NCBI GenBank assembly: GCA_949128115.1
Contig: OX421968.1
Coordinates: forward strand, 30,780,877 to 30,844,876
Length of the DNA stretch: 64,000 nt
From: Anaspis maculata
Taxonomy: Eukaryota > Arthropoda > Insecta > Coleoptera > Scraptiidae
Direction of reading: 5' to 3'
Under the pieces are notes generated by a model. The model did not search any database. It was not told where the DNA came from and saw nothing but the letters and a program-made list of their open reading frames with translations. This document shows positions 5,599-64,000 of this stretch, one piece after another. The position numbers were made by a program, and so were the translations under genes. How positions within the stretch are numbered: the stretch's first letter is position 1; each line of letters begins with the position of its first letter.

Positions 5599-6979
5599 TA
5601 CTAAAGCGCAAATTCTATCGTTTCTGAAGATCCAAATGATGCATTGAACTTCCTCGTGAAGTTCCTTAACGATGATCAAACACCTTCAGGCATGTCCCCC
5701 TCATGTCTCCTCGCTAGAAAGGATCAATAATCATGCTATCAAACAACTAAGTCAGGCACCGTTTTCGCTTTTCGTTACTCGATGCCGTAGATACGATACG
5801 GCCTGTGCGGTGGTTCATGTGATTGTCCTTAAATTAAATAATTATGAAAGTACGTAAATTATGAAGCACGACATGGTGGATGAAGTAGAAGAAACCATAG
5901 ACTAGGGAAGAAACATGCAGGATCGCCCCGGAGCCTGGCGCTTTGGTGGTCATGCCATCACCGTCACGGCGAATTCGGGTGTTCGGTTTGAATAAAACTC
6001 GTGGCGCGTCCACTCCTCTGAATTATGGCGTGAAAAGTTCGGTTTTGCATCGCGAAACGTGATTTATTAAATGCACAAAAAAACGTGCAGTGCAGCGTTA
6101 AAAGCGCCTATCAAAAGCAAATTGGAGTGTCGCAAAATGTGTAAAACAACATTTTTGTCTTGTGGGCAATATCATAAGGTCAGCCAAGGAGAGACTGGTC
6201 GGTTGAGCTTTATATTAACTTGTGTTGGTCGTGCAGGCCGGCCGGGGCCGGTCGGCCAAAGTTGAGCCGCAGGAAGTAAAAATGCAAATTTTACAACTAC
6301 ACATGTGAGGAGCAATTTTATTATTTCGCCAGCAATTACCCGTGTACCAAAAATAATTACGCAGTATAAGTAGTCATATACAATACACCTACTGCACCGA
6401 ATGACACCACTACTTGCTCGAACTTTCGAACCACTAAGCCGACAAGTTTATTACTAGTTCATACCTACGCCTACGCACACGCACGCACATTTTTCTAAAA
6501 TGTTCATTCGTAGAAGGGCAATGATGTCTTTCCTGGAATTTATTAAGCAACTTTTAGTCCGGTGTATGCCAATTACGGCATAATACCGTCCCAGTAGGTA
6601 AATCGAAAATTTCACATGTCACATATCACATGTAGTTCCGTAGAAACATCGTCCATTCGTAATAGGCATCCGCAACCATCTGACAATAATAATGACAATA
6701 ATTATTCAGGTAGTTTTGCTACTTGGGTCATTTTCCAAAATGGGGACAATATAATGTAACTGCTGTATAAAAAATATAAATTAAGCTAGTGAAGAGCTAG
6801 AAACACAAACCGTAAATTCCACAAAAAAGATGAAACGAGATCAGTTGATTCTCGATTTTTGTTTGCCAATTTGTAGCTGACTGATCAATGGAAATGTCGG
6901 TTCATCCAATCCTGTTGAATAATGCACGCATTTTCACGCGCATACATGCCTGCATTTTTTAATAAGACTGGATAAAGCA
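5599..6979. other. Intergenic, no gene recognised
   Basis: No domain-bearing frame. Short open frames at 5672-5857 and 6071-6265 look random. Microsatellite-like ACGCACACGCACGCAC occurs near 6475. Confidence 0.55.
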
Positions 6980-11172: not shown

Positions 11173-11349
11173 TTTTTAGCGCATTTTTCATCTTGATGAA
11201 AATCGCTATTGCAACCGCTTTGTCCGTCCGTCCGTCCGTCCGTCCGTCCGTTCCTCGAACTCCCCCCAAACTAGACGCCCTAGCTTTCTAATTTTTTCGC
11301 TGTTACATAGCTGTCACTCCCCAAGAAGGGCTAGGCTATATTGAATGTC

Positions 11350-12480
11350 TATATTACGCCGCCAACACAGAGAAAACCGCCCCCGATAAACTTAAAATAA
11401 CATGATATTGCAATTTCTTCCAGACCTACTGCTCTGGTGTTCTCATTTTATGAATAATACATAGTTGCCACTTATAAACGTAAGCACAGAAACATTCCGC
11501 CTTCAATATGCGCCGCCGATATGGAAAAATTGCTAAAAACCGCCCCCAATCACTTTAAAATGAAAAACATAAACCCGAAGACATAGCGATCTAATTCTTT
11601 CGGTATATGAACAGCTGACTACAAATGGAGAAGGATAGGCTACATTTGGTTAGTCGCCGCCCCCAGATTCCGCCCCAAACGACAAATAATGCAACTTTCA
11701 CAATTTTACTGATTGCGATGTTCTTTCAAACATTTAGAAACTGCGAGAGAAACTGCCAACTCAAATTGTGCAACATTTGCTTAGCCGAACGATGCGGCTG
11801 CCACACGCCGCCCCCAAAGTAAGAGATAAATGAAAAACATGAACCCGAAGACATAACGATCCAAGTCTTTCGCTATATAGATAGCTGACTAAAAATGGGG
11901 AAGGATAGGCTACTTGTGATATGGCGCCGCCTCCAGCTTCCGCCCCCAAAAGAAAAAAGTGTTTCAACAATTTTCACTGATTCAGATGTTGATGTTACCT
12001 CAAACATTCAGAAACTCTTAACTCAAACTGTGCAAGAATTTCTTTGCCAAACTCTGCCACTCCCACACGCCGCCCCCAAAGCAAGAGATAAATGTAAAAC
12101 ATAAACCTGAAGACATACAGATTTAATTCTTCCGCTATATAGATAGCTTACTGAAAATGGGAAAAGATAGGCCACTTTCGAATAACCGCCGCCTCCAGCT
12201 CCCGCCCCCCAAACAAAAAAAAACAACTTCCACAATTTTCATTGATTGTTATATTTTCTTAAACATTTGGAAACCCCAACTCAAACAGTGCTACAGTTAC
12301 TTTCCCGAATGCTGCCGCTCCCACACGCTGCCCCCAAAGTAAGAGATGAATGAAAAACATCAACCCGAAGACAAAACGATCTAATTCTTTCGCTATATGG
12401 ATAGTCGATTGAAAATGGGAAAGAATAGGCTACTGTTGATTAGTGGCTGCTCCCAGCTTCCGCCTCCAAACAAAAAAATA
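11350..12480 (+). repeat. ~265-bp tandem repeat inside the family-Y element
   Basis: Four to five units repeat the order ACGCCGCCCCCAAAG, AGAGATAAATG, AAAAACATRAACCCGAAGAC, TTCGCTATAT, AATGGGRAAGATAGGC and CGCCGCCTCCAGCTTCC. Unit anchors fall near 11545, 11810, 12068 and 12330. The short frames at 11625-12588 are this repeat read in register and are not genes. Confidence 0.8.
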
Positions 12481-12607
12481 TTGATGATTGAAAGAATTTT
12501 CATTCAAATCTGTTTCATTGACAAGTACCCCATTCTGATAACAAAAAATCACAATGAGTTTCGACTGAAGAGAGTGGGCAAAGAATGATGTTTCTCCTTC
12601 AACCAAA

Positions 12608-15110: not shown

Positions 15111-15117
15111 CTTACCT
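15110..15117 (-). other. 5' splice donor of the NtA exon
   Basis: On the minus strand the sequence reads TAAAG|GTAAGTAATG, a near-perfect donor. It leaves a phase-1 junction after codon 163. No acceptor could be assigned in the window. Confidence 0.75.
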
Positions 15118-15605
15118 TTAGTAGCGGCGCTAACTCTGTCGAGATTAGTTAGCGTAACTGGCACAGGACTAATGGTAAGATGAACATCCGCTTCCTTGAA
15201 ATCCTGTGGTCTGCGACCTATGAAGATCGCAGTGTATTTCGGCCGCAAAACCTGCCGGCATGTAACACCCTCGCCCTCGTAAAGAGTTTTCAACACTTGC
15301 ACCTCCTGGTCGTCCTTTAGACCGCCATTGTTCCTGAAGTAGCGCTTGACGTACACGGAAAACAACACGGTGGTTGAGTTTAGATAGCGTATATTACTTG
15401 TCACTTTTCCGGTGAAAACAAAACTGGCCGACGCGATCCGAACATTGAGCTTTTCGTCACTTTTGATCGTGTGGTCGTCGAATTTGCAACGGGGCAAGAA
15501 AATTGTCGACGTTTGACGACGCGTAGGAAAACGGTGGACGTTATCGGCCGCAGCGAGGCATAGGGTTGCAACTGAAAGTGCCGCCAAATGTATTCCAAAG
15601 AGCAT
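15116..15605 (-). CDS. Agrin-like protein, first coding exon (signal peptide + NtA domain), partial
   Basis: Host exon of 163 codons plus one base. Residues 1-20 form a hydrophobic signal peptide (MLFGIHLAALSVATLCLAAA), so the product is secreted. Residues 40-160 resemble the laminin-binding NtA domain of agrin. C40 and C116 are spaced like the NtA disulfide pair. FVFTGKV, FSVYVKRYFR, YTAIFIGRR and PVTLTNLDRV follow the beta-strand order of the OB/TIMP-like fold. N75 is in an N-S-T sequon. The reading frame ends at a consensus donor AAAG|GTAAGT at 15116/15115, so the ORF stop just beyond is intronic. Unlike nearly everything else here it is intact, GC-richer and not repeated. In vertebrates NtA anchors agrin to laminin in the basement membrane. 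The remaining exons must lie downstream on the minus strand, and none is recognised in 1-15 kb. It could instead be another NtA-containing matrix protein. Confidence 0.72.
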
Positions 15606-16262
15606 GCTGGAGCGGCTGGCACGTGGCCTTCCTTTTCGTTAACCAGCTTTTGTGCATACAAGAAACACGCACGGCTAAAGACGCGGCATGACTGGCCGAC
15701 CACTTTACCACCACGCACGGTACCGCTCCTTCCTTCGGTTCTAAGCTGAACGCTACTACCTACTACTAACTCTTGAGAACTTGAGATTTTCTATCATAGC
15801 CCCATTGGTCACAAACTCACACCAGCCTCAACCTATTCGTCCAGATTAAAATTTAATTAGCCGTCCCGTGTTTACACGCTTCTCACTTTCAAAGAATCCT
15901 TCGCCCGTGGACCGGCACAACGCCAAATAGACCCCCCATCAATCAAAACCATGACCCTACTTACAATCGACATCGTCATAACTCTAATTTCATTAACCAC
16001 CAGCAACACTCTGTTACATACATCAAGCTGCTGGTATAAACAGGGTGTTCACGCGTCACGCGAGATGGATAACCCTCATTCAAAAAAAAAAACTCCCTTC
16101 ACACGAGCCTTTCACACTAATTCTCAAAAGAAAAAACTTTCCTTGAACGATTTTTTCTGTAGCATGTGAATATGTCAAGCACAGTTTTCCATCACATGTG
16201 TCACACACAGGGCCGGCTTCAGTGTGGCGAGCGAGGCCGCTGCCGGTGTCCGGAATTGTGAT
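15606..16262. other. Presumed 5' UTR/promoter side of the NtA gene; no other gene
   Basis: Upstream of the start codon on the minus strand. An overlapping minus frame (15401-15718) is a shadow. No clear TATA element seen. The first exon may extend further, since the UTR cannot be delimited by eye. Confidence 0.4.
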
Positions 16263-21293: not shown

Positions 21294-21904
21294 GTAGAAA
21301 GATCCCAGGATTTTTTCATAATTTCGAAAAGTGAAATGTTTTGAAAACAGTTTCACCAACACTTCGAGAATTTCATTGCGAACAACGGGACTTTGATTAT
21401 CAAACGACGGAAATACACGGGAGCTTGAGTAGGTACCTAGTTTGATTAGTAACTGACAGTGAAATCAGTGTTACGTCAAACTTGGAAACGTCAAGCAAGG
21501 AAAAGAGGTTATCCACATTCCAAATCAACGCGTCAACTTTGTCAAAAATGTAAAATTTGCCTTTATACGGTTGTGACGCCCTCAGCGTGTGGAAGTTGCA
21601 TTGCATGGGCCCATGAGGTATGCGTATTCAATTCGCTCTTCCAATTTTCCGCAAAAAACTATTTGAGAAAAAAATCAAAAATTAAAATTTTGAGATTTGA
21701 TTTTACAATTAGGCTAAACACTCCCCCGACGGACGGGACTAATAATTTAAAATTTACAATAATCTCTAAATCTTGATGAGAAACAAAAGTAATCCAGGGT
21801 ATCCCAGGACTCGCGCCCCAGAGTCAAGTTCAGTTTAAAAAAAATGCGAAATAATGCTTCAAATGTGCCAGAAAAATGTTTAAAAAAATTGGGCTTTCAT
21901 TATA
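21294..21904. other. Intergenic, no gene recognised
   Basis: Open frames at 21400-21606 (minus) and 21459-21776 (plus) show no domain. A C..C...C..C-like spacing in the plus frame (CQKCKICLY) is too short to call. Confidence 0.45.
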
Positions 21905-21958
21905 TTAAAAAGACAACAAACACGCAAATATAAATTTGCGTGTTTGTTGTCTTTTTAA
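21905..21958. repeat. Perfect 25-bp hairpin with a 4-nt loop
   Basis: Arms TTAAAAAGACAACAAACACG plus CAAAT and their exact complement, separated by ATAA. A perfect 54-bp palindrome lying 200 bp upstream of the hammerhead stem. Confidence 0.9.
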
Positions 21959-22119
21959 CATTGCTCTACTCGGCTTGAGTATACATGTGTACACCTACCA
22001 TCGATGCTCTATTACTTGGCGACGGTGTTGCTTTACATGGAATTCTGGTAATTCCCTCGCATGCCTGATGCCTTGAAATATAGCATCTGCGGAATGCCTT
22101 TGATAGATGGCGCCGCTTG

Positions 22120-22144
22120 GAGGACTCACATATTAGGAGTCCTC
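22120..22144. repeat. Small perfect hairpin (8-bp stem, 9-nt loop)
   Basis: GAGGACTC (22120) pairs exactly with GAGTCCTC (22144). It lies between the perfect palindrome at 21905 and the hammerhead stem and may belong to the same element. Confidence 0.6.
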
Positions 22145-22162
22145 TTGGGTGTATATTACCAT

Positions 22163-22298
22163 GAGTTCTCTGACTGCCACAGCATCGGATGGTTGAACTG
22201 AGCACGCCTGCGCACTGATGAGCCCCCAGTAGGGGCGAAACACGTGTCTGTGCAGTTGTTCGGTTCGACCGTCTGATGTTGTGGTAGTCGGAGAGCTT
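22163..22298 (+). ncRNA. Type I hammerhead ribozyme with a long extended stem I
   Basis: The catalytic core spans 22208-22255. Stem I inner strand CTGCGCA (22208-22214) is followed by CTGATGA (22215-22221). Stem II is GCCCC-CAGTA-GGGGC (22222-22236), then GAAA (22237-22240). A short stem III starts at A22240 (AC, loop ACGT, GT) and the cleavage-site C is 22248, preceded by GT. The other stem I strand is TGTGCAG (22249-22255). All core residues fit the hammerhead consensus CUGANGA...GAAA...UH. After an internal loop (CGC against T) stem I continues for 42 uninterrupted pairs, 22163-22204 with 22257-22298. Ten of these are G-U, and there are no A-C or other mismatches. Short stem III is known from retroelement hammerheads, which often act as dimers. 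Predicted self-cleavage is 3' of 22248. The host element is unknown. Confidence 0.85.
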
Positions 22299-22321
22299 TG
22301 TTCCATTTTCATTATATTGCC

Positions 22322-22727
22322 GATATTATGGAGGCCGAGGGGTGGGACTTCGCCCCTTCTTATTACTTTTCCGACTCCCGACTAATAGGACGGGAAAGTA
22401 TTATGACCGTGCGGAAAAAAAATTAGATAACGCCGAGGATAACGCCGGATTTATTGTACTCAAAGGGGGGCTCAAAAATCCTGAAATACAGTTTTCATCA
22501 AAATGGCCTGTGGAAGAGTTCTATGAAAACGAATCATTTTACTTCCTGTCTTACATCGCATTGGAACGTCTATCTGTATGAACGTTTAGTGTATGAAAAT
22601 TCAAGACCCACTCAAAAGTTTCAATCCTTTTTTTGTCCAGTCCATTATAAAAATTTTCACTGATGTCTAATCAGATAATGAAAATAAGAGGTGGCAAAGT
22701 CCCACCCTTCGACCCCCATATCTTCAA
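22322..22727. repeat. Inverted repeat with ~45-bp arms
   Basis: GGGGTGGGACTTCGCC near 22338 and TCTTATTACTTT are mirrored as AATAAGAGGTGGCAAAGTCCC near 22685-22705, followed by CCCCCATAT. Interior frames (22342-22663) have no recognised domain. Probably another non-autonomous element. Confidence 0.5.
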
Positions 22728-22885
22728 AAATAAAATTCCAACTGTTTTTAAATAATTTTTCTGACAAATTTGAAGCATTTTTCTGAACTGTCTTCGACTC
22801 TGATGCGCGAGTCCTAGGATATCCTGTAATCAGTAATTCTTTCAAACATACATAGGTCTACAAAGGGGCAATATTTCACCTCGGG

Positions 22886-24366
22886 ATTTTTAGCGCATTT
22901 TCCATCTTGATGAAAATCGCTATTGCAACCGCTTTGTCCGTCCGTCCGTCCGTCCGTCCGTCCGTCCGTTCCTCGAACTCCTCCCAAACTAGACGAACTA
23001 GCTTTCTAATTTTTTCGCCGTTACATAGCTGCTACTCCCAAAGGAGGGCTAGGCTATATTGGATGTCCATATTGCGCCGCCAACATAGAGAAAACCGCCC
23101 CCGATAAACTTGAAATAACATAATATTGCACTTTCTACCAGACCTGATGCTCTGGTGTTCTCATTTTTTGAATAATACATAGTTGCCACTTATAAACGTA
23201 AGCCAAGAAACATTCCGTCTTCAATATGCGCCGCCGACATGAAAAAACTACTAAAAACCGCCCCCAATCACTTTAAAATAAAAAACATAAACCCGAAGAC
23301 ATAGCGATCTGATTCTTTCGGTATATAAATAGCTGACTAAAAATGAGAAAAGATGGGCTACTTTTGGTTAGTCGCCGCCCCCAGATTCCACCCCCAAGCG
23401 ATAAAAAGTGCAACTTTCATAAATGTTACTGATTGAGATGTTCCCTTAAACATTTAGGAACTGCCAACTCAAATTGTGCAACATTTGCTCAGCCGAACGC
23501 TGCCGCTTCCACACGCCGCCCCCCAAAGTAAGAGATAAATGAAAAACATGAACCCGAAGACATAGCGATCCAAGTTTTTCGCTATGTGGATAGCTGACTG
23601 AAAATGGAAAAGGATAGGCTACTTTTGATATGGCGCCGCCTCCAGCTTCCGCCCCCAAAAGAAAAAAAGTGCAACTTTCAACAATTTTCACTGATTTAGC
23701 TGATAATGTTACCTCGAACATCCAGAAACTCTTGACTCAAACTGTGCAAGAATTTCTTTGCCTAACTCTGCCGCTCCCACACGCCGCCCCCAAAGTGAGA
23801 GATAAATGTAAAACATGAACCTGAAGACATAGCGATCTAATTGTTCCGCTATATAGATAGCTGACTAAAAATGGGAAGAGATAGGCCACTTTTAATTAGC
23901 CGCCGCCTCCAGCTGCCACCTCTAAACCAAAAAAAATGCAACTTTCACAATTTTCACTGATTGTTATATTCCCCTTATATTTAGAAACTCCCAACTCAAA
24001 CTGTGCAACAGTTACTTTGGCGAATGCTGCCGCCCCCACACGCTGCCCTCAAAGTGAGAGATGAATGAAAAACATAAACCCGAAGACATAACGATCTAAT
24101 TCTTTCGCTATATGGATAGCTAACTAAAAATGGGTAAGAATAGACTACTGTTGATTAGTCGCCGCTCCCAGATCCCGCCCTCAAACAAAAAAATATTGAT
24201 GAGTGAAAGAATTATCATTCAAATCTATTTCATTGGCAAGTACCCCATTCTGATAACAAAATATCACAATGAGTTTCGAATGAAGAAAGTGGGCAAGGAA
24301 TGGTGTTTCTCCTTCAACCAAATTTCTTTACGTTCATAATATGCCTCTCTTTGAGAAAATGCGCTA
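22886..24366 (+). mobile_element. Family-Y element (copy 2), uninterrupted
   Basis: Left end TTTTTAGCGCATTTTCCATC, then CGCTTTG and a (TCCG)n run (22935-22968). Right end GAGAAAATGCGCTA followed by CTGAGACTCACGCACGTGAA. About 1.48 kb, mostly ~265-bp tandem repeats (23060-24170). It contains CCAAATTTC at 24318-24326, the undisrupted target of the insertion seen at 12608. No transposase. Confidence 0.7.
23060..24170 (+). repeat. ~265-bp tandem repeat inside family-Y copy 2
   Basis: Same unit as 11350-12480 (CGCCGCCCCCAAAG, AGAGATAAATG, ATAGCGATCTAATT, TATAGATAGCTGACTA). Anchors lie near 23265, 23518, 23790 and 24050. Apparent small proteins such as 23446-23721 (minus) are this repeat read in register. 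Confidence 0.8.
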
Positions 24367-24922: not shown

Positions 24923-24995
24923 CTCCCGATAGCTTAGTGGTCAGAGTATCCATCCGGCAAGTGGAAAGACCCGGGTTCGAGTCCCGGTCAGGGCG
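24923..24995 (+). tRNA. tRNA-like sequence (SINE head or tRNA pseudogene)
   Basis: A cloverleaf can be drawn. The D-arm/A-box region is TAGCTTAGTGGTCAGAGTA. The anticodon arm TCCAT-CCGGCAA-GTGGA gives anticodon GGC (Ala-like), but position 33 is C where U is expected. The T-arm is CCGGG-TTCGAGT-CCCGG, a perfect B-box. The acceptor stem CTCCCGA/TCAGGGC has two mismatches. A T-run follows at 25001-25005. The defects argue against a working tRNA. A tRNA-derived SINE promoter is likely, although the tail is not defined. Confidence 0.55.
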
Positions 24996-28000: not shown

Positions 28001-28207
28001 TTCATGATAGCTCAATAAAATTCACCATTTCGTTACTCTGGTCAAGCTCGCCAAAATGCCGTACAATAAAAAAAAATTCCAGGACCGGACTAGAAAATTA
28101 TTTTTTTAAGTTTTGGCCCTAAAAGTATAATTTTTGTGCGTTTTTTTTTAAATCTACCAGAAAATTGGGAAAGTTCAGAAAAAATGCTTTAAAAATGGCA
28201 CTTCGAT
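25006..28207. other. Intergenic, no gene recognised; orphan ACAGGGTG ends
   Basis: About 3.2 kb without a convincing gene. Frames at 25672-26386 have no domain I recognise. TACAGGGTGATTCATAAGC (27838) and TACAGGGTGAGTTATAAG (27945) are left-end words of the ACAGGGTG repeats. A TTTA-rich run (28220-28262) precedes the LINE. Confidence 0.5.
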
Positions 28208-29917
28208 TTGGGCGGCACATTTATTTATTTTATTTATTTATTTAATTTAATCGACTTATTTAACGAGGCGACATTCAGCTATCAGCTGCATCGTGATGTT
28301 GCCAACTGCTTCGCACGTTATTTCTCAGGTGTCTATGCGAGCAGTAACAATCCGGCTTACTCCTGTGGCGACCTGGGGTCGACTGACTACCTTTGCATTA
28401 CCACTTTCAGCGAGAGTGACGTCGTGGCAGCCTTGGTCAAGCTGAAGGTTGGTAATGCTGTCGGGCCGGACCTCGTTCCATCATATCTGTTAAGGGACTG
28501 TCGTTCTGCCCTTGCTCGCCCCCTGCAATTGATTTTCAACAGATCTCTTGCTTCCTCCACCTTCCCTGAATCATGGAAAATCTCTTGGTTGTGCCCTATT
28601 CACAAGAACGGCCCTAGGAACTGCGCTGAGAACCATAGACCGATCGCTATCTTGAGTAACGTCAGCAAGGTGTTCGAGATTTGTTTGCATAGGGTTATCT
28701 CGGGGTTTGTTGAACGGAAAATAGTTAGCGAGCAGCACTGTTTCATAAAGGGAAAGTCAACAGTCACGAACTTGATGGAGAAAACGCAATTTATATCTGA
28801 TTGTATGAGCGAGCGTAAGCAAGCCGATGTCATCTACACCGATTTTTCAAAGGCTTTTGATCGCATAAGCCACGACATACTCTTGAGGAAGTTGGAAAAT
28901 TTAGGGTTTTCCCCCGATCTGGTCAGACTGTTCAGGTCCTATCTGGTCGGTCGAAGGCAGTTTGTCAGGGTTTCAGGTCACAGTTCCGAGAGCTTCGAGG
29001 TTTTGTCGGGGGTCCCGCAGGGATCTGTGCTGGGTCCCCTACTTTTCATCATTTTCATAAATGACATTGGGCTAAGCCTCAGGAGCTCGTTCCTCCTCTA
29101 TGCTGCCGATTTGAAGATCTTTTCACCTGTGAATTCTTCTGGGGACTGCTCTCGCCTTCAGGAGGACATCGATGCATTGGTGGGATGGTGCGCTGCGAAC
29201 GGTCTTGACTTGAACGTGACGAAGTGCATGGTCATGTCCTTTTCGAAGTCATCTGGACCCCTGGAGTTCCCATACAAGATTGGCGATCACATTCTGGCCA
29301 GACCCAGTGTCATCAAAGACCTTGGCGTGTACTTCGACCCAAAGCTTTCTTTCTCAGAGCACATTGGTTACGTGCACAGGGCAGCCTACACTACACTGGG
29401 TTTCGTGACACGGAACTCCAGGGACTTTTCCAACATCGAGACATTGCAGCGTCTCTTTTCGTCCTTGGTTTTGCCACGGCTGGAGTATGCATCCGTCATC
29501 TGGTGCCCCTACTACGAGAAATATGTGTCCTTTCTGGAGGGTGTGCAGCGGCGTTTCCTGAAGCTACTGGCCCTCAGGGTCGATGGAGTTTACCATTGTG
29601 TTGGTTTCCCGCAGCAGTCGTTGCTGGCTAGCTTTGGTCATCGGTCCTTGGAAAGCCGAAGAACGGTTGGCTACCTTCTCTTCCTGCATAGGCTTGTTTC
29701 GGGTGCGGTAACCTCCCCCAGTGTTCTTTCGAGGATTTCCCTGAATGTTCCGAGACAGGGCCTAAGGCGGAGTGATGTTTTCTATGTAAGGCCCACACAA
29801 AAGCTCTTTTACTTCAATTCTCCAGTGAACCGCCTTGCCCTGACATACAAAAGGTTCCAAGAGAAGTTCGACATTTTCAACTGCAGTGCGGCGGATGTCA
29901 GGCGAGTTTTTGATTGA
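28208..29917 (+). pseudogene. 5'-truncated non-LTR retrotransposon reverse transcriptase, YADD changed to YAAD
   Basis: An uninterrupted 569-codon frame; true homology starts near 28265, after a TTTA-rich run. RT motifs in order: GPDLVPSYLLRDC (about 85-100), FPESWKISWLCPIHK, YTDFSKAFD (about 210; catalytic Asp kept), SGVPQGSVLGPLLF (about 267), then LLYAADLKIF, where Y298-A299-A300-D301 replaces YADD. Next come GLDLNVTKCMV and KDLGVYFDPKLSF (thumb region). The C-terminal part ends with a NSPVNRLALTYKRF block. The apurinic endonuclease domain is absent. A short 3' UTR runs into (AAT)n at 29966-30000, a LINE-style tail. Loss of the first Asp of YADD (GCC in place of GAC) should abolish polymerisation, although the rest of the frame is intact. 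Clade by eye: Jockey/CR1-like. Confidence 0.88.
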
Positions 29918-58711: not shown

Positions 58712-61260
58712 GTAAGAAAGGGGGGTTGCGTTGCTTCCAACTACCGTGTTTCAACTACTTTTTCAAGGTCAAGCCATAGGCGCAAATATTTCTGGGTCAA
58801 AAATTGAATAAATGCACGAGAATAGCCCGTCTACTCTTTACTCTTCCAGGATGTATGCGAGAGGTTTCTACAAAGAAAAATACTCATTAGTCATTGCACT
58901 TTTTATTTATTTTAGTGAAAAATATTTTAATACATATTTTAATTCAAGTACACAAGACACTACTCACTCTCTATTTTTACTAGGGGGTTGTTTTGATTCC
59001 ATCCAACTTAATTCTCATTATCATTGCAACATGTGACGTTTTCGAGTGTTCACCTCGAAAAATCTAGAAGAAGGCTAGCAAGGTTCCCAAACAAGTGTAA
59101 GTGCTCTCATGGACAAGTCCGGAAGTTATTGCGTAAAATTGCGCAATAGTTGATAAAAGTCTAGAAGAGTGTTACTAAATGACACAATTGTTTAAGAAAT
59201 TGTTTACCAATTATTATGACCATTCATTGTTTTTTTATGGGGCCCTTAAAGGGATGGAGCTCTAGTGTGTAGTAGTAGGCAAACTTACGCATGAGTTGAT
59301 AGTAAGTTATTGCGTAAAATTGCGCAATAGTCAAGAAAAGTCTAGAATAGTGTTACTAATTGACGCAACTGTTTAGGGAATTGTTCACCAGGTCACGTGA
59401 TGATTCATTATATTTTAAGGTTGATGTTGCAACATGCGACGCAATAAGTGTTTATCTCGAAAAACCTAGAAGAAAGCCAACAAGGTTCCAAAACAACGGA
59501 AGTGCTAACACGAACAAGTCCAGAAGTTATTGCGTAAAATTGTGCAATAATTAAGAAAAGTCTAGAATATTGTTACTAAATGACACAACTGTTTAGGGAA
59601 TTGTTTACCAGGTCACGTGATGATTTATTGTATTTTAAGGTTGGTGTTGCAACATGTGATGCAATAAGTGTTTGCCTCGAAAAAAATTCTAGAGAAAGCC
59701 AACAAGGTTCCAAAACAACGAAAGTGCTAACATGAACAAGTCCAGAAGTTATTGCGTAAAATTGCGCAATAGTTGAGAAAAGTCTAGAATATTGTTACTA
59801 AATCACACAACTGTTTAGGGAATTGTTTACCAGGTCACGTGATGATTCATTGTATTTTAAGGTTGGTGTTGCAACATGTGATGCAATAAGTGTTTGCCTC
59901 GAAAAAAATTCTAGAGAAAGCCAACAAGGTTCCAAAACAACGAAAGTGCTAACATGAACAAGTCCAGAAGTTATTGCGTAAAATTGCGCAATAGTTGAGA
60001 AAAGTCTAGAATATTGTTACTCAATCACACAACTGTTTAGGGAATTGTTCACCAGGTCACGTGAGGATTCATTGTATTTTAAGGTTGGTGTTGCAACATG
60101 TGATGCAATAAGTGTTTGCCTCGAAAAAAATTCTAGAGAAAGCCAACAAGGTTCCAAAACAACGAAAGTGCTAACATGAACAAGTCCAGAAGTTATTGCG
60201 TAAAATTGCGCAATAGTTGAGAAAAGTCTAGAATATTGTTACTAAATGACACAGTTGTTTACAAAATTGTTCACCAGTTATTATGACCATTCATTGTTTT
60301 TTAAGGTTGGTGTTGCAACATGTGACGCAATACCTAAGTGTTCACCTCGAAAAATTTAGAAGCAAGCCAACAAGGTTCCAAAGCAACTTGAGGGTTGTCA
60401 GAAACAAGTTCCGGAAGCTATTGCGTAAGATTGCGCAATACTTTGGAAAAGTCTAGAATATTGTCACTAAATGATGCAATTGTTTACTAAATTACAAACG
60501 AACTTGTTTACCAGTTATTGTGATGAGTCATGATATTTTAGCGTTGTTCTTATATAGGTAAAAAAGGAGGGTAGGGTTGCTTTCAGCTGACGTGTTTCCG
60601 TTACTTTTTCAAGGTCAAGTCATAGACACAACTATCTCTGGGTCAAAAAATCAAACAAGTGCGCATGCGTAGTAGTAGGACAGCGCATCCACTCAACTTT
60701 AAGAATGTATGAGAGAGGTTTATACGAATAAAAATACACATTAGCTGTTATCGGTTGGAGCTTTATTTAGTTTAGAGTTCAGAGTAAACAGTTTTATGCA
60801 TACTTATTTTAATACACACAGAACACTACTCGCTCTTTATGCCATACCGGCAGTCGTTTCAATTCTATCCATCTTGATTCTCAACTGGAGGGGTCCTAAA
60901 GGGGACGGAGCCCTAATGTGTAGTAGTAGTAGTAGTAGCAGCCAAACTTACATATTAAGAGTTAGGAGCTAGGTATTGCGTAAAATTGCGCAATGGTTTG
61001 GAAAAATCTAGAATATTGTTACTAAATGACACAACTGTTCAGGGAATTGTTTACCAGGTCACGTAATGATTCATTGTTTGTCAAGGTTAACGTTGCAACA
61101 TGTGATGCAAATAAGGGTCTACCTCGAAAAATCTAGAAGAAAGCCAGCAAGGTTCCAAAGCAACTGAAAGTGCTGACATGAACAAGCTCTGGAAGTTATT
61201 GCGTAAAATTGCGCAATATTTGGGAACAAGTGTTACTGATTAATGACATTCTAGAACATT
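58712..61260. repeat. ~222-bp satellite array inside a ~1.84 kb higher-order unit
   Basis: TTATTGCGTAAAATTGCGCA recurs near 59126, 59309, 59528, 59751, 59971, 60194, 60418, 60973 and 61197; central spacings are 219-224 bp. Units also contain AAAGTCTAGAATATTGTTAC, TTCACCAGGTCACGTGATGA, TTTTAAGGTTGGTGTTGCAA and AGCCAACAAGGTTCCAAAAC. A leader block (GTTGCTTYCARCT, TTACTTTTTCAAGGTCAAG) occurs at 58720 and again at 60560, about 1,843 bp apart. The array ends near 61260. Confidence 0.9.
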
Positions 61261-62037: not shown

Positions 62038-62629
62038 GTCGTTGTTTGACTAGAGTAATTAGATAAATGTATGCAATTACCACTTCGATAAAATTTGTGT
62101 CGAATTAACGAAATATTCGATTTCGCTAATTCAACTTCGTCGCATTTTTAGGCAAGTCGTGCCTTTTCGTCTCGAGGAAAAATTAATTAGAAACAATCGG
62201 TTTCCAAATTAATAATTCCAAACCCTTTCGTCGTCGTCGTCGTCAAAAGTTTAGCTTGCATTTTGTTACTTGTTCGATAGTTTAATTTAATTAGCGCATT
62301 CGGTTCTAATTAATTAAATTTGTATTGTCGTTGTAAATTATTTAAAACAATCGGTTTTTAAATAATTCATTGTCGCTTCGTTATTAGTTCATAGAGCAAT
62401 CGGCTCTGATTCTTGTAAATGCGGATCTTTCTTCCAAAGGTCCCTTTGTTGCACGAAGAAACGGGAAGTCGTAAATCTTCGACATCTGTGGGTCAGTCTT
62501 TAGGAAAATTTGGCCGGTCAGCCGCTGGAACTTACAGCCCCAGTTTAATATCGGTTTCGCTTTATTGTTGCGCCTCATCGTCGTGAAGACACCATTTAGT
62601 CTCGTAATTATCGAAAATTTAGCCGCACA
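62038..62629 (+). other. Untranslated leader of the BEL/Pao element
   Basis: 592 bp between the primer site and the gag start, without an open frame of note on the plus strand. Probably holds packaging signals, which cannot be recognised by eye. Confidence 0.5.
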
Positions 62630-64000
62630 ATGGCTACAAAATATAAGGAAAATCGCGCCATTAGGGAGAGTTTGATAAATCAATTGAACGAAGCACTTGA
62701 CCTGGCTCAAAGTGCTAAGGAAGAAATATCATTGCGTGCTTTGTTTAAGCGGAGATTCGTTCGCGCCCAAACGGCATTTGAGAAATTTGAGATCGTACAC
62801 GGTGCAATTGTCACCTACATAGCAGGTACGCCAGACCCGGATTTCCAGGCCGAAGAAGAAATACGAATAGCTTTCGATAAATGCTTTTCGGATATCGAGC
62901 ATTGCTTTACCCTTTGGTTCCCAGAACCAGCTGGCGAAGCTTTGTCGGATACGCCTACATCATCGTTGACGTCTATGTCAAATTTGAAATTGCCGAAACT
63001 TTCACTTAGGCCATTCGATGGCAGTTTCGCGGAATGGACGGTCTTTAAGCAGTTTTTTGACAACGCCGTTCACGAACAAGCACACCTCGCTAACATAGAA
63101 AAATATCAATACTTGATCAGTTCGTTGAAGGGTGAACCGTTGAACCTTCTAAACTCTTTAACCCTTTCGGACGCTAATTACCCCATAGCGTACAAAACGC
63201 TCACCGAACGGTATGAGAATAAACGAAAATTGGCCTCGTACTTTTGGACGAATATCCAAAATATACCGCCCAACAATTTCGAATCCGCAAAAACGCTGCG
63301 AGATACTTTGGATAAATTTCGGGAGAATCGCTCCGCTTTAAAGGCTTTACAAATAAAGGACGTCGAGGACTTCCTTTGGGTTAATAGCTTACTCGATAAA
63401 TTAGACCACGAAACTAGACGTGCTTTCGAATCGCACTTCCGAACCACAGATCCTACAAAAATTCCTAGCTTTGAGGAACTATCGTCGTTTATCGAGAGCC
63501 AGTGTCAGGTACTAGATTCGATTAGTTCAAGTGACACTGGTTCAAATTATCGTAATCATCCCGTGGCATCAGAGCCGTGTAGTTTCAAATCGAATTTGAA
63601 CCCTACGCGAGCGGCCTTTATGGTCAAAACGTCGACATCCCATGGTGATGATAAATGCATTGTGTGTGAGGCCTCGCATTTCGTAGCACAGTGTCCTAAG
63701 TTTTTAGATATAGCACCATATGAACGCTTCGAAATCGCGAAGAAAAACAAATTATGTATAAATTGTCTAAAGCCCTGGCACCAGCTTCGCGAATGTAATG
63801 TCGGGCAATCTTGTGACACGTGTGTTGGAAAACACCACACCTTGTTGCATTTCGTTAAAACTTCAAAACAGGCAAAAAACGCGGATTCTACCCAAAGAAC
63901 GGTGATGACCACATTAGCACGGTGTAACGACCTGCCAATAGTTTTGTTGCCAACAGCCCTGATCCAAATTAGGGACATAAATGGAACATACCACCAAATT
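62630..64000 (+). CDS. BEL/Pao LTR retrotransposon gag-(pol) polyprotein, 5' part, runs off the window
   Basis: Open for 457 codons from ATG at 62630 to the end, no stop or frameshift. Residues ~120-290 match the DUF1759 gag-like region (LKLPKLSLRPFDGSFAEW, YQYLISSLKGEPLNLL, YPIAYKTLTERYENK). Zinc knuckles follow: CIVCEASHFVAQC (from C343), CINCLKPWHQLREC (from C376) and a third CDTCVGKHHTLLH. The last ~30 residues (TLARCNDLPIVLLPTALIQI) are the usual lead-in to the retropepsin domain, whose active site would lie just beyond the window. Gag packages the element's RNA; in this group gag and pol are usually one frame. The start ATG follows CACA with no upstream in-frame coding. The intact frame, LTR and primer site suggest a young copy. 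Confidence 0.9.
   Translation, partial: MATKYKENRAIRESLINQLNEALDLAQSAKEEISLRALFKRRFVRAQTAFEKFEIVHGAIVTYIAGTPDPDFQAEEEIRIAFDKCFSDIEHCFTLWFPEPAGEALSDTPTSSLTSMSNLKLPKLSLRPFDGSFAEWTVFKQFFDNAVHEQAHLANIEKYQYLISSLKGEPLNLLNSLTLSDANYPIAYKTLTERYENKRKLASYFWTNIQNIPPNNFESAKTLRDTLDKFRENRSALKALQIKDVEDFLWVNSLLDKLDHETRRAFESHFRTTDPTKIPSFEELSSFIESQCQVLDSISSSDTGSNYRNHPVASEPCSFKSNLNPTRAAFMVKTSTSHGDDKCIVCEASHFVAQCPKFLDIAPYERFEIAKKNKLCINCLKPWHQLRECNVGQSCDTCVGKHHTLLHFVKTSKQAKNADSTQRTVMTTLARCNDLPIVLLPTALIQIRDINGTYHQI

Follow-up and report, generated by a model that had tools for sequence, protein, structure and literature searches.

A type I hammerhead with a long, conserved stem I in a probable retrozyme insertion of Anaspis maculata

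We analysed a 64-kb stretch of the Anaspis maculata genome, hereafter referred to as the window, in which sequence inspection and folding identified a complete type I hammerhead on the plus strand at 22163-22298. The motif lies within a 400-bp retrozyme-like insertion, which is itself placed inside an element with terminal inverted repeats (Table 1), whose arms are imperfect, ~100 bp long and start with CAGGGTATCC. Elsewhere in the window, a 574-aa frame at 28193-29914 carries an RVT_1 domain (best protein match, 48 percent identity over 94 percent), and a LINE protein search confirmed a common RVT_1 family. A 467-aa frame with DUF1759, which we take to be typical of BEL/Pao-type elements, is cut by the window end (62600-64000); the frame at 15111-15638 gave no match to solved structures, and a tRNA-like gene at 24923-24995 scored 46.4 bits in Rfam and was called tRNA-Ala(ggc) by ARAGORN. 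One repeat occurs twice (11222-12514 and 22936-24229), composed of a (GTCC)n run, ~300 bp that are 92 percent alike and an array of 259-262-bp units, and a tandem array without a hammerhead core was found at 59304-60486 (period 222 bp, 5.3 copies). The 259-262-bp and 222-bp arrays were considered as retrozymes and rejected, since a pattern scan of the whole 64 kb found no second core.

Table 1. Coordinates of the hammerhead, the insertion that carries it and the surrounding element
Feature	Position	Strand	Pairing or basis
Distal stem I, 5' arm	22163..22204	+	42 pairs with 22257-22298
Stem I internal loop, 5' side CGC	22205..22207	+	opposite U22256 (3x1 loop)
Proximal stem I, 5' strand	22208..22214	+	7 bp with 22249-22255
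Catalytic core CUGAUGA	22215..22221	+	sequence and RF00163 alignment
Stem II, 5 bp, loop CAGUA	22222..22236	+	strands 22222-22226/22232-22236
Core GAAA	22237..22240	+	sequence and RF00163 alignment
Stem III region ACACGUGU	22240..22247	+	alone 2 bp and tetraloop; perfect palindrome, 8 bp between two copies
Predicted cleavage site, 3' of C22248	22248..22248	+	position within hammerhead motif
Proximal stem I, 3' strand	22249..22255	+	fold
Distal stem I, 3' arm	22257..22298	+	fold
Retrozyme-like insertion, 400 bp	21907..22306	+	boundaries from same-genome copies and flanking direct repeat
Left target-site duplication TTTCATTATATT	21895..21906	.	12 bp
Right target-site duplication TTTCATTATATT	22307..22318	.	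12 bp
Perfect palindrome, 25 bp, 4-nt loop	21905..21958	.	window sequence and copies
Terminal-inverted-repeat element around insertion	21795..22826	.	arms 21795-21901 and 22729-22826; TAATC on both sides

A preliminary description of the site had claimed a full core with stem II, a minimal stem III, and, for stem I, 7 bp followed by an internal loop and 42 further pairs, and both the sequence and the fold agree with it. Beyond the end of the stem, 22162/22299 are T-T and the following positions are also unmatched. RNAfold, the program that the description had named, gave -97.3 kcal/mol for 22140-22320 (z -10.4), and 0 of 200 shuffled sequences was equally stable. The hairpin fold reached -93.6 kcal/mol on the plus strand vs -54.3 kcal/mol on the minus strand, and the hammerhead conformation (-91.0 kcal/mol) was less stable than the best fold by 2.6 kcal/mol. 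A permissive hammerhead search, requiring 4 bp or more in stem I, returned one match in the window; such a match was found in 1 of 200 Markov-shuffled windows, and a match with a 7-bp stem I in 0 of 200. The score against the Rfam type I model, which the description had also singled out, fell short: the motif covers all 45 positions of RF00163 and forms every model pair, but at 25.6 bits it misses the curated gathering cut-off of 34. An Rfam scan of the window at the gathering cut-off reported a tRNA alone and no hammerhead, and the hammerhead was also absent from the matches of a whole-window scan with E up to 1.

We further searched the A. maculata assembly (757,842,296 bases, 50 contigs) for copies. 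A 351-bp query gave at least 54 matches, with 40 of 1,671 candidates scored, and the hammerhead core pattern matched 1,135 times in the 758-Mb genome (581 forward, 554 reverse), compared with a single match for the reversed-pattern control (0 forward, 1 reverse). Viral contigs and prokaryotic genome contigs gave no match to the hammerhead patterns. We also rejected a prokaryotic or phage source for the window, given how few frames it has, the presence of RVT_1 and DUF1759 among them and the 758-Mb size of the genome. Units are arranged head to tail at locus L009 (421 bp apart) and as six successive tandem units at L091 (spacing 419 bp), which agrees with the many-copy tandem repeats of 150-450 bp described for retrozymes; the window copy is a single unit. 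The GC content was 0.48 for one unit and 0.464 for 21902-22306, below the 50 percent limit given for retrozymes. Two further arrangements were observed. At L109:1401-6092 (contig C1:34567000-34574500), two direct units that are 98.6 percent alike are separated by 3.9 kb, and this spacer holds a frame with a hAT dimerisation domain, apparently left by a DNA transposon that inserted into the tandem. L110 (contig C1:30085500-30092000) is a large palindrome, several kb long, whose two strands carry identical frames and whose halves each contain one retrozyme copy.

The ends of the element were examined in 25 insertions, comprising 20 loci from the best matches of the 351-bp query, four others and the window copy. 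The ends were taken from this analysis because match ends at 22302-22313 are fixed by the end of the window-copy query. A flanking direct repeat of 9-17 bp was present at 20 of the 25 insertions (12-17 bp at 17), counted without a shuffle control and often some bases off the automatic boundary, and five had no flanking repeat of at least 9 bp; these repeats exceed the 4 bp above which retrozyme duplications are expected, and the one at L091 sits in a simple AT-rich stretch. Read by eye, one outer end lay at GTTGTCTTTTT or a variant of it in 19 of 25 insertions, and 21 of 25 ended on one side at GAGCTTTGTTT, in inverted sense, or shortly beyond it, as would be expected if second priming favours this site. 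The hammerhead might have been native to the 1-kb inverted-repeat element, but this reading was dropped because the copies delimit an insertion of 400 bp that has a 12-bp duplication of its own. Relative to the family end motif GTTGTCTTTTT, we read the window copy as a mostly inverted segment joined to ~25 nt of direct end, and the perfect palindrome listed in Table 1 as the place where this short direct end meets the inverted body; only the right half of the palindrome is present in the tandem units examined. By most features that could be tested, the element fits a metazoan non-LTR retrozyme, and we consider it very probable that this hammerhead belongs to an insertion of a non-autonomous retroelement of that kind. 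The likeness to retroelement hammerheads that the minimal stem III had initially suggested is supported.

An antisense frame also runs through the retrozyme unit (minus strand, 21969-22325; 119 aa in the window copy). Similar antisense frames occur at L109:1430-1780 and 5765-6094, and their length ranges from 109 to 119 aa across copies. The window frame had no Pfam match, and no Pfam domain was detected in the stop-free pieces tried that overlap the window copy. The frame may be a by-product of base composition; given its presence, the element may or may not be non-coding.

Segments were present in both orientations in 19 of the 25 insertions, in direct orientation only in five and in inverted orientation only in one. 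This matches the arrangement of Penelope in PMC3846280, which describes published insertions that combine pLTRs in direct and inverted orientation, with a palindrome where the inverted part joins and duplications of 8-10 bp; internal starts of reverse transcription and head-to-head copies are likewise noted for Penelope-like elements in PMC11167929 and PMC3846280, and hammerheads of these elements also form double structures, according to PMC6466107. The unit might thus be a part (a pseudo-LTR derivative) of a Penelope-like element with minimal hammerheads in its terminal repeats, in which case there would be no separate retrozyme family. We regard this as rather unlikely, because no reverse transcriptase or GIY-YIG domain was present among the stop-free stretches searched close to the window copy, and the core has the 2-bp stem III with a tetraloop that PMC7229834 states for invertebrate hammerheads. 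Moreover, the two spaced unit pairs examined are a pair spanning the hAT dimerisation-domain frame (L109) and a large palindrome (L110); both were viewed as candidates for a Penelope pLTR-frame-pLTR arrangement and neither resembles one.

Returning to the hammerhead itself, G-U pairs make up 11 of the 49 pairs of stem I (10 of 42 distal, 1 of 7 proximal). The pair listing agrees with the earlier statement that all 11 non-Watson-Crick pairs are G-U or U-G and none is A-C. We compared this with the mismatches in 49 inverted repeats found by self-BLAST of the window, which, each counted once, held 384 G-U, 402 A-C and 653 transversions. No control repeat was strongly biased (smallest P = 0.087 among the 29 with at least six transitions), and the arms of the host inverted-repeat element contained 5 G-U, 7 A-C and 5 transversions. 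Under the inverted-repeat spectrum of the window, the chance of 11 of 11 G-U was 3.9e-4 if transitions alone are considered and 4.3e-7 if all substitutions are (from 502 G-U, 523 A-C and 879 transversions, with 8 self-palindromes counted twice and proportions nearly identical to the single count); the value given previously was near 1 in 2,000. These probabilities argue against the view that an inactive hammerhead was recently caught up in an inverted duplication, which then decayed neutrally and gained its G-U excess by chance; the single hammerhead core of the window would suit such an origin, which we nevertheless regard as extremely improbable.

We then asked how far the long stem I is a property of the family, using 80 loci that were the first places listed on contig C1, chosen regardless of stem and excluding the last four sites and the C1:55.18-Mb cluster (the latter already in L010). 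They yielded 91 cores, of which 82 were distinct with 52-nt arms, 85 with 60-nt arms and 86 with 80-nt arms. When folded with the core held open, 54 of 85 distinct cores reached a stem I of 40 pairs or more vs 11 of 425 with shuffled arms, and the median was 42 pairs in real cores vs 16 with shuffled arms. By arm sequence, the distinct cores fell into groups A (25), A' (17), B (16) and C (5), and a further 19 were left unassigned; groups B and C are unlike A along most of the arms, yet have a similar long stem. The unbroken run of 42 pairs is private to the window copy: 22202/22259 is U-U in most close copies and A-U or G-U in others, and 22197 is G in most close copies. A stem I of ~40-50 pairs nonetheless recurs in several diverged groups, with strand-specific conservation of its pairs.

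For the mismatch count, the 5' arm of each copy was aligned to the reverse complement of its 3' arm, with G-U and A-C treated alike. The 63 assigned copies held 515 G-U, 53 A-C and 287 transversions (G-U:A-C of 248:17 in A, 140:11 in A', 102:17 in B and 25:8 in C), so that the outcome that the preliminary description had set against itself, A-C as frequent as G-U among the copies, was not seen. G-U exceeded A-C in 62 of these copies and equalled it in one, which again speaks against neutral decay, subject to shared descent. The 19 distinct cores without recognised arms, counted apart, held 50 G-U, 34 A-C and 165 transversions, and the column majorities gave G-U:A-C of 11:0 in A, 9:0 in A' and 10:1 in B. 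Because the G-U pairs are largely inherited together, the copies are not independent trials, and the counts perhaps represent two or three independent lineages, not 63.

Pair conservation was assessed in two alignments, for which a row qualified if its arms resembled those of a reference copy, irrespective of pairing. One held 42 copies of A and A', made up of the window copy, 5 rows out of the 20 loci found with the 351-bp query and 36 of the 42 distinct A and A' rows; the other held 13 of the 16 group B rows. In the former, 94.0 percent of pair cells were kept vs 33.5-43.7 percent with slid partners, and both sides had changed in 23 cells vs 10.3 in shuffles (0/500). There was no excess in the number of pairs with double changes (6 vs 5.0 shuffled, 163/500) or of pair types (52 vs 50.9 shuffled, 167/500). 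One stem pair was A-U in 25 of 42 rows and G-C in 13, and a 2-nt insertion was shared by the two strands in 17 of 42 rows, whereas four rows had it on the left alone and none on the right alone; of the two pairs that it adds, one was C-G in 17 of 17 rows and the other was paired in 8 and unpaired in 9. Group B showed pairing in 91.5 percent of cells and 5 double changes vs 2.2 shuffled (16/500), with pair types (155/500) and covariation score (141/500) inside the shuffled range.

The selection on the RNA fold proposed previously is supported by the G-U excess in copies, the 94.0 percent of pairs kept and some compensatory changes, but the bases next to the G-U pairs are also those that RNA editing would leave. 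A-to-G editing at A-U pairs yields G-U and never A-C, and ADAR disfavours a 5' G. In the window stem, a 5' G preceded 0 of 11 G of G-U pairs (0 of 10 in a second count) vs 9 of 17 A of A-U pairs (Fisher P = 0.009), and the same context in group majorities gave P = 0.003 (A), 0.080 (A') and 0.099 (B), with A and the window not independent. The excess could therefore stem largely from editing (A to inosine), or from another strand-specific deamination of double-stranded RNA before reverse transcription, in place of selection on pairing. Editing, however, leaves unexplained the A-U to G-C double changes, the paired 2-nt insertions and the long stems of differing sequence in groups A, B and C, and wobble stacking preferences could produce the same base context. 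We consider this account improbable as the main cause; editing and selection can act together, so that selection on the RNA fold is the better reading of the excess and RNA editing may add to it.

The stem III region is also maintained in the family, being ACACGTGT in 68 of 86 distinct cores and capable of self-pairing in 71 of 86. We folded one and two copies of seven cores minus their long arms (the window and six from A, A', B and C). In 7 of 7 cases the best two-copy fold was a double hammerhead whose cores stayed open, with a gain of 5.1 to 11.1 kcal/mol over two separate copies, and the best one-copy fold paired some core bases. By these predictions, the palindromic stem III is suited to a double hammerhead. 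Such structures have been described for ASBVd, newts and Penelope-like elements (PMC6466107, PMC6155905, PMC3088659).

Based on this anatomy and on published retrozymes (PMC7229834, PMC7761336), we infer a cycle in which the RNA is cleaved, closed into a circle and copied. A tandem transcript would self-cleave at every hammerhead, probably through double hammerheads formed when two ACACGUGU loops pair over 8 bp; the single window copy would make at most one cut of its own transcript. The 5' end of a freed monomer (the 3' arm) could re-pair with its 3' end (the 5' arm and core) over the long stem I, which would hold the ends for a host ligase and form the rod of the circle. Taken as a circle, the 421-nt L009 unit was predicted to be 66 percent paired at -167.1 kcal/mol (z -4.0 vs 60 Markov shuffles), and its minus-strand circle reached -123.7 kcal/mol. 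The reverse transcriptase of another element would then copy the circle, starting at motif GUUGUCUUUUU, and insert the copy, and a second priming event would often leave a head-to-head inverted segment. More tentatively, and as a possibility that we do not favour over its negation, selection may keep the strand-specific stem I of ~45 pairs as a closing clamp that re-pairs the monomer ends for the ligase, the palindromic tips of two rods may kiss into the active double hammerhead, and the fixed insertion ends and head-to-head segments may come from a Penelope-type reverse transcriptase moving the circles. Penelope-like insertion ends, if true, would help decide which enzyme moves animal retrozymes, a point that PMC7229834 leaves open with LINEs or PLEs among the candidates. 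Diverged groups within one genome keep both the long stem I and the 8-nt palindromic stem III, and the copies form a natural data set for testing which features, apart from the catalytic core, retrozyme RNA requires.

Among the titles and abstract openings covered, no type I hammerhead with such a stem I was encountered, and one may still be reported in figures, supplements or subscription papers, which lie outside that coverage; the combination of 'long stem I' and hammerhead led to one viroid paper. We finally compared the Anaspis element with known systems. The consensus stem III of RF00163 (Hammerhead_1) is loop-free, as in the window copy. Amphibian satellite and ASBVd hammerheads have the same short stem III lengthened between two copies (PMC6155905, PMC6466107, PMC3088659), in other hosts and sequences than the Anaspis element; this comparison is one of stem III. 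Penelope-like and Terminon hammerheads share the type I fold, the weak stem III, reported dimer use and head-to-head copies (PMC7761336, PMC6431247, PMC11167929 and PMC3846280); as described there, they are minimal motifs in the terminal repeats of elements with a reverse transcriptase, whereas no reverse-transcriptase frame accompanies the Anaspis unit within the pieces searched. Metazoan non-LTR retrozymes, as presented by Cervera and de la Pena (2020; PMC7229834), have the same type I hammerhead in units that measure a few hundred bp (150-450 in the published cases) and lie in tandem, the same GC content below 0.5, duplications of more than 4 bp and a highly self-paired predicted circle, and the same two-pair helix III with a tetraloop that is stated there for invertebrates. 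Set against the text descriptions of these retrozymes, the Anaspis element may differ in its stem I of ~40 pairs past the internal loop, which the preliminary description had called unusual, and in the head-to-head inverted segment found in many insertions.
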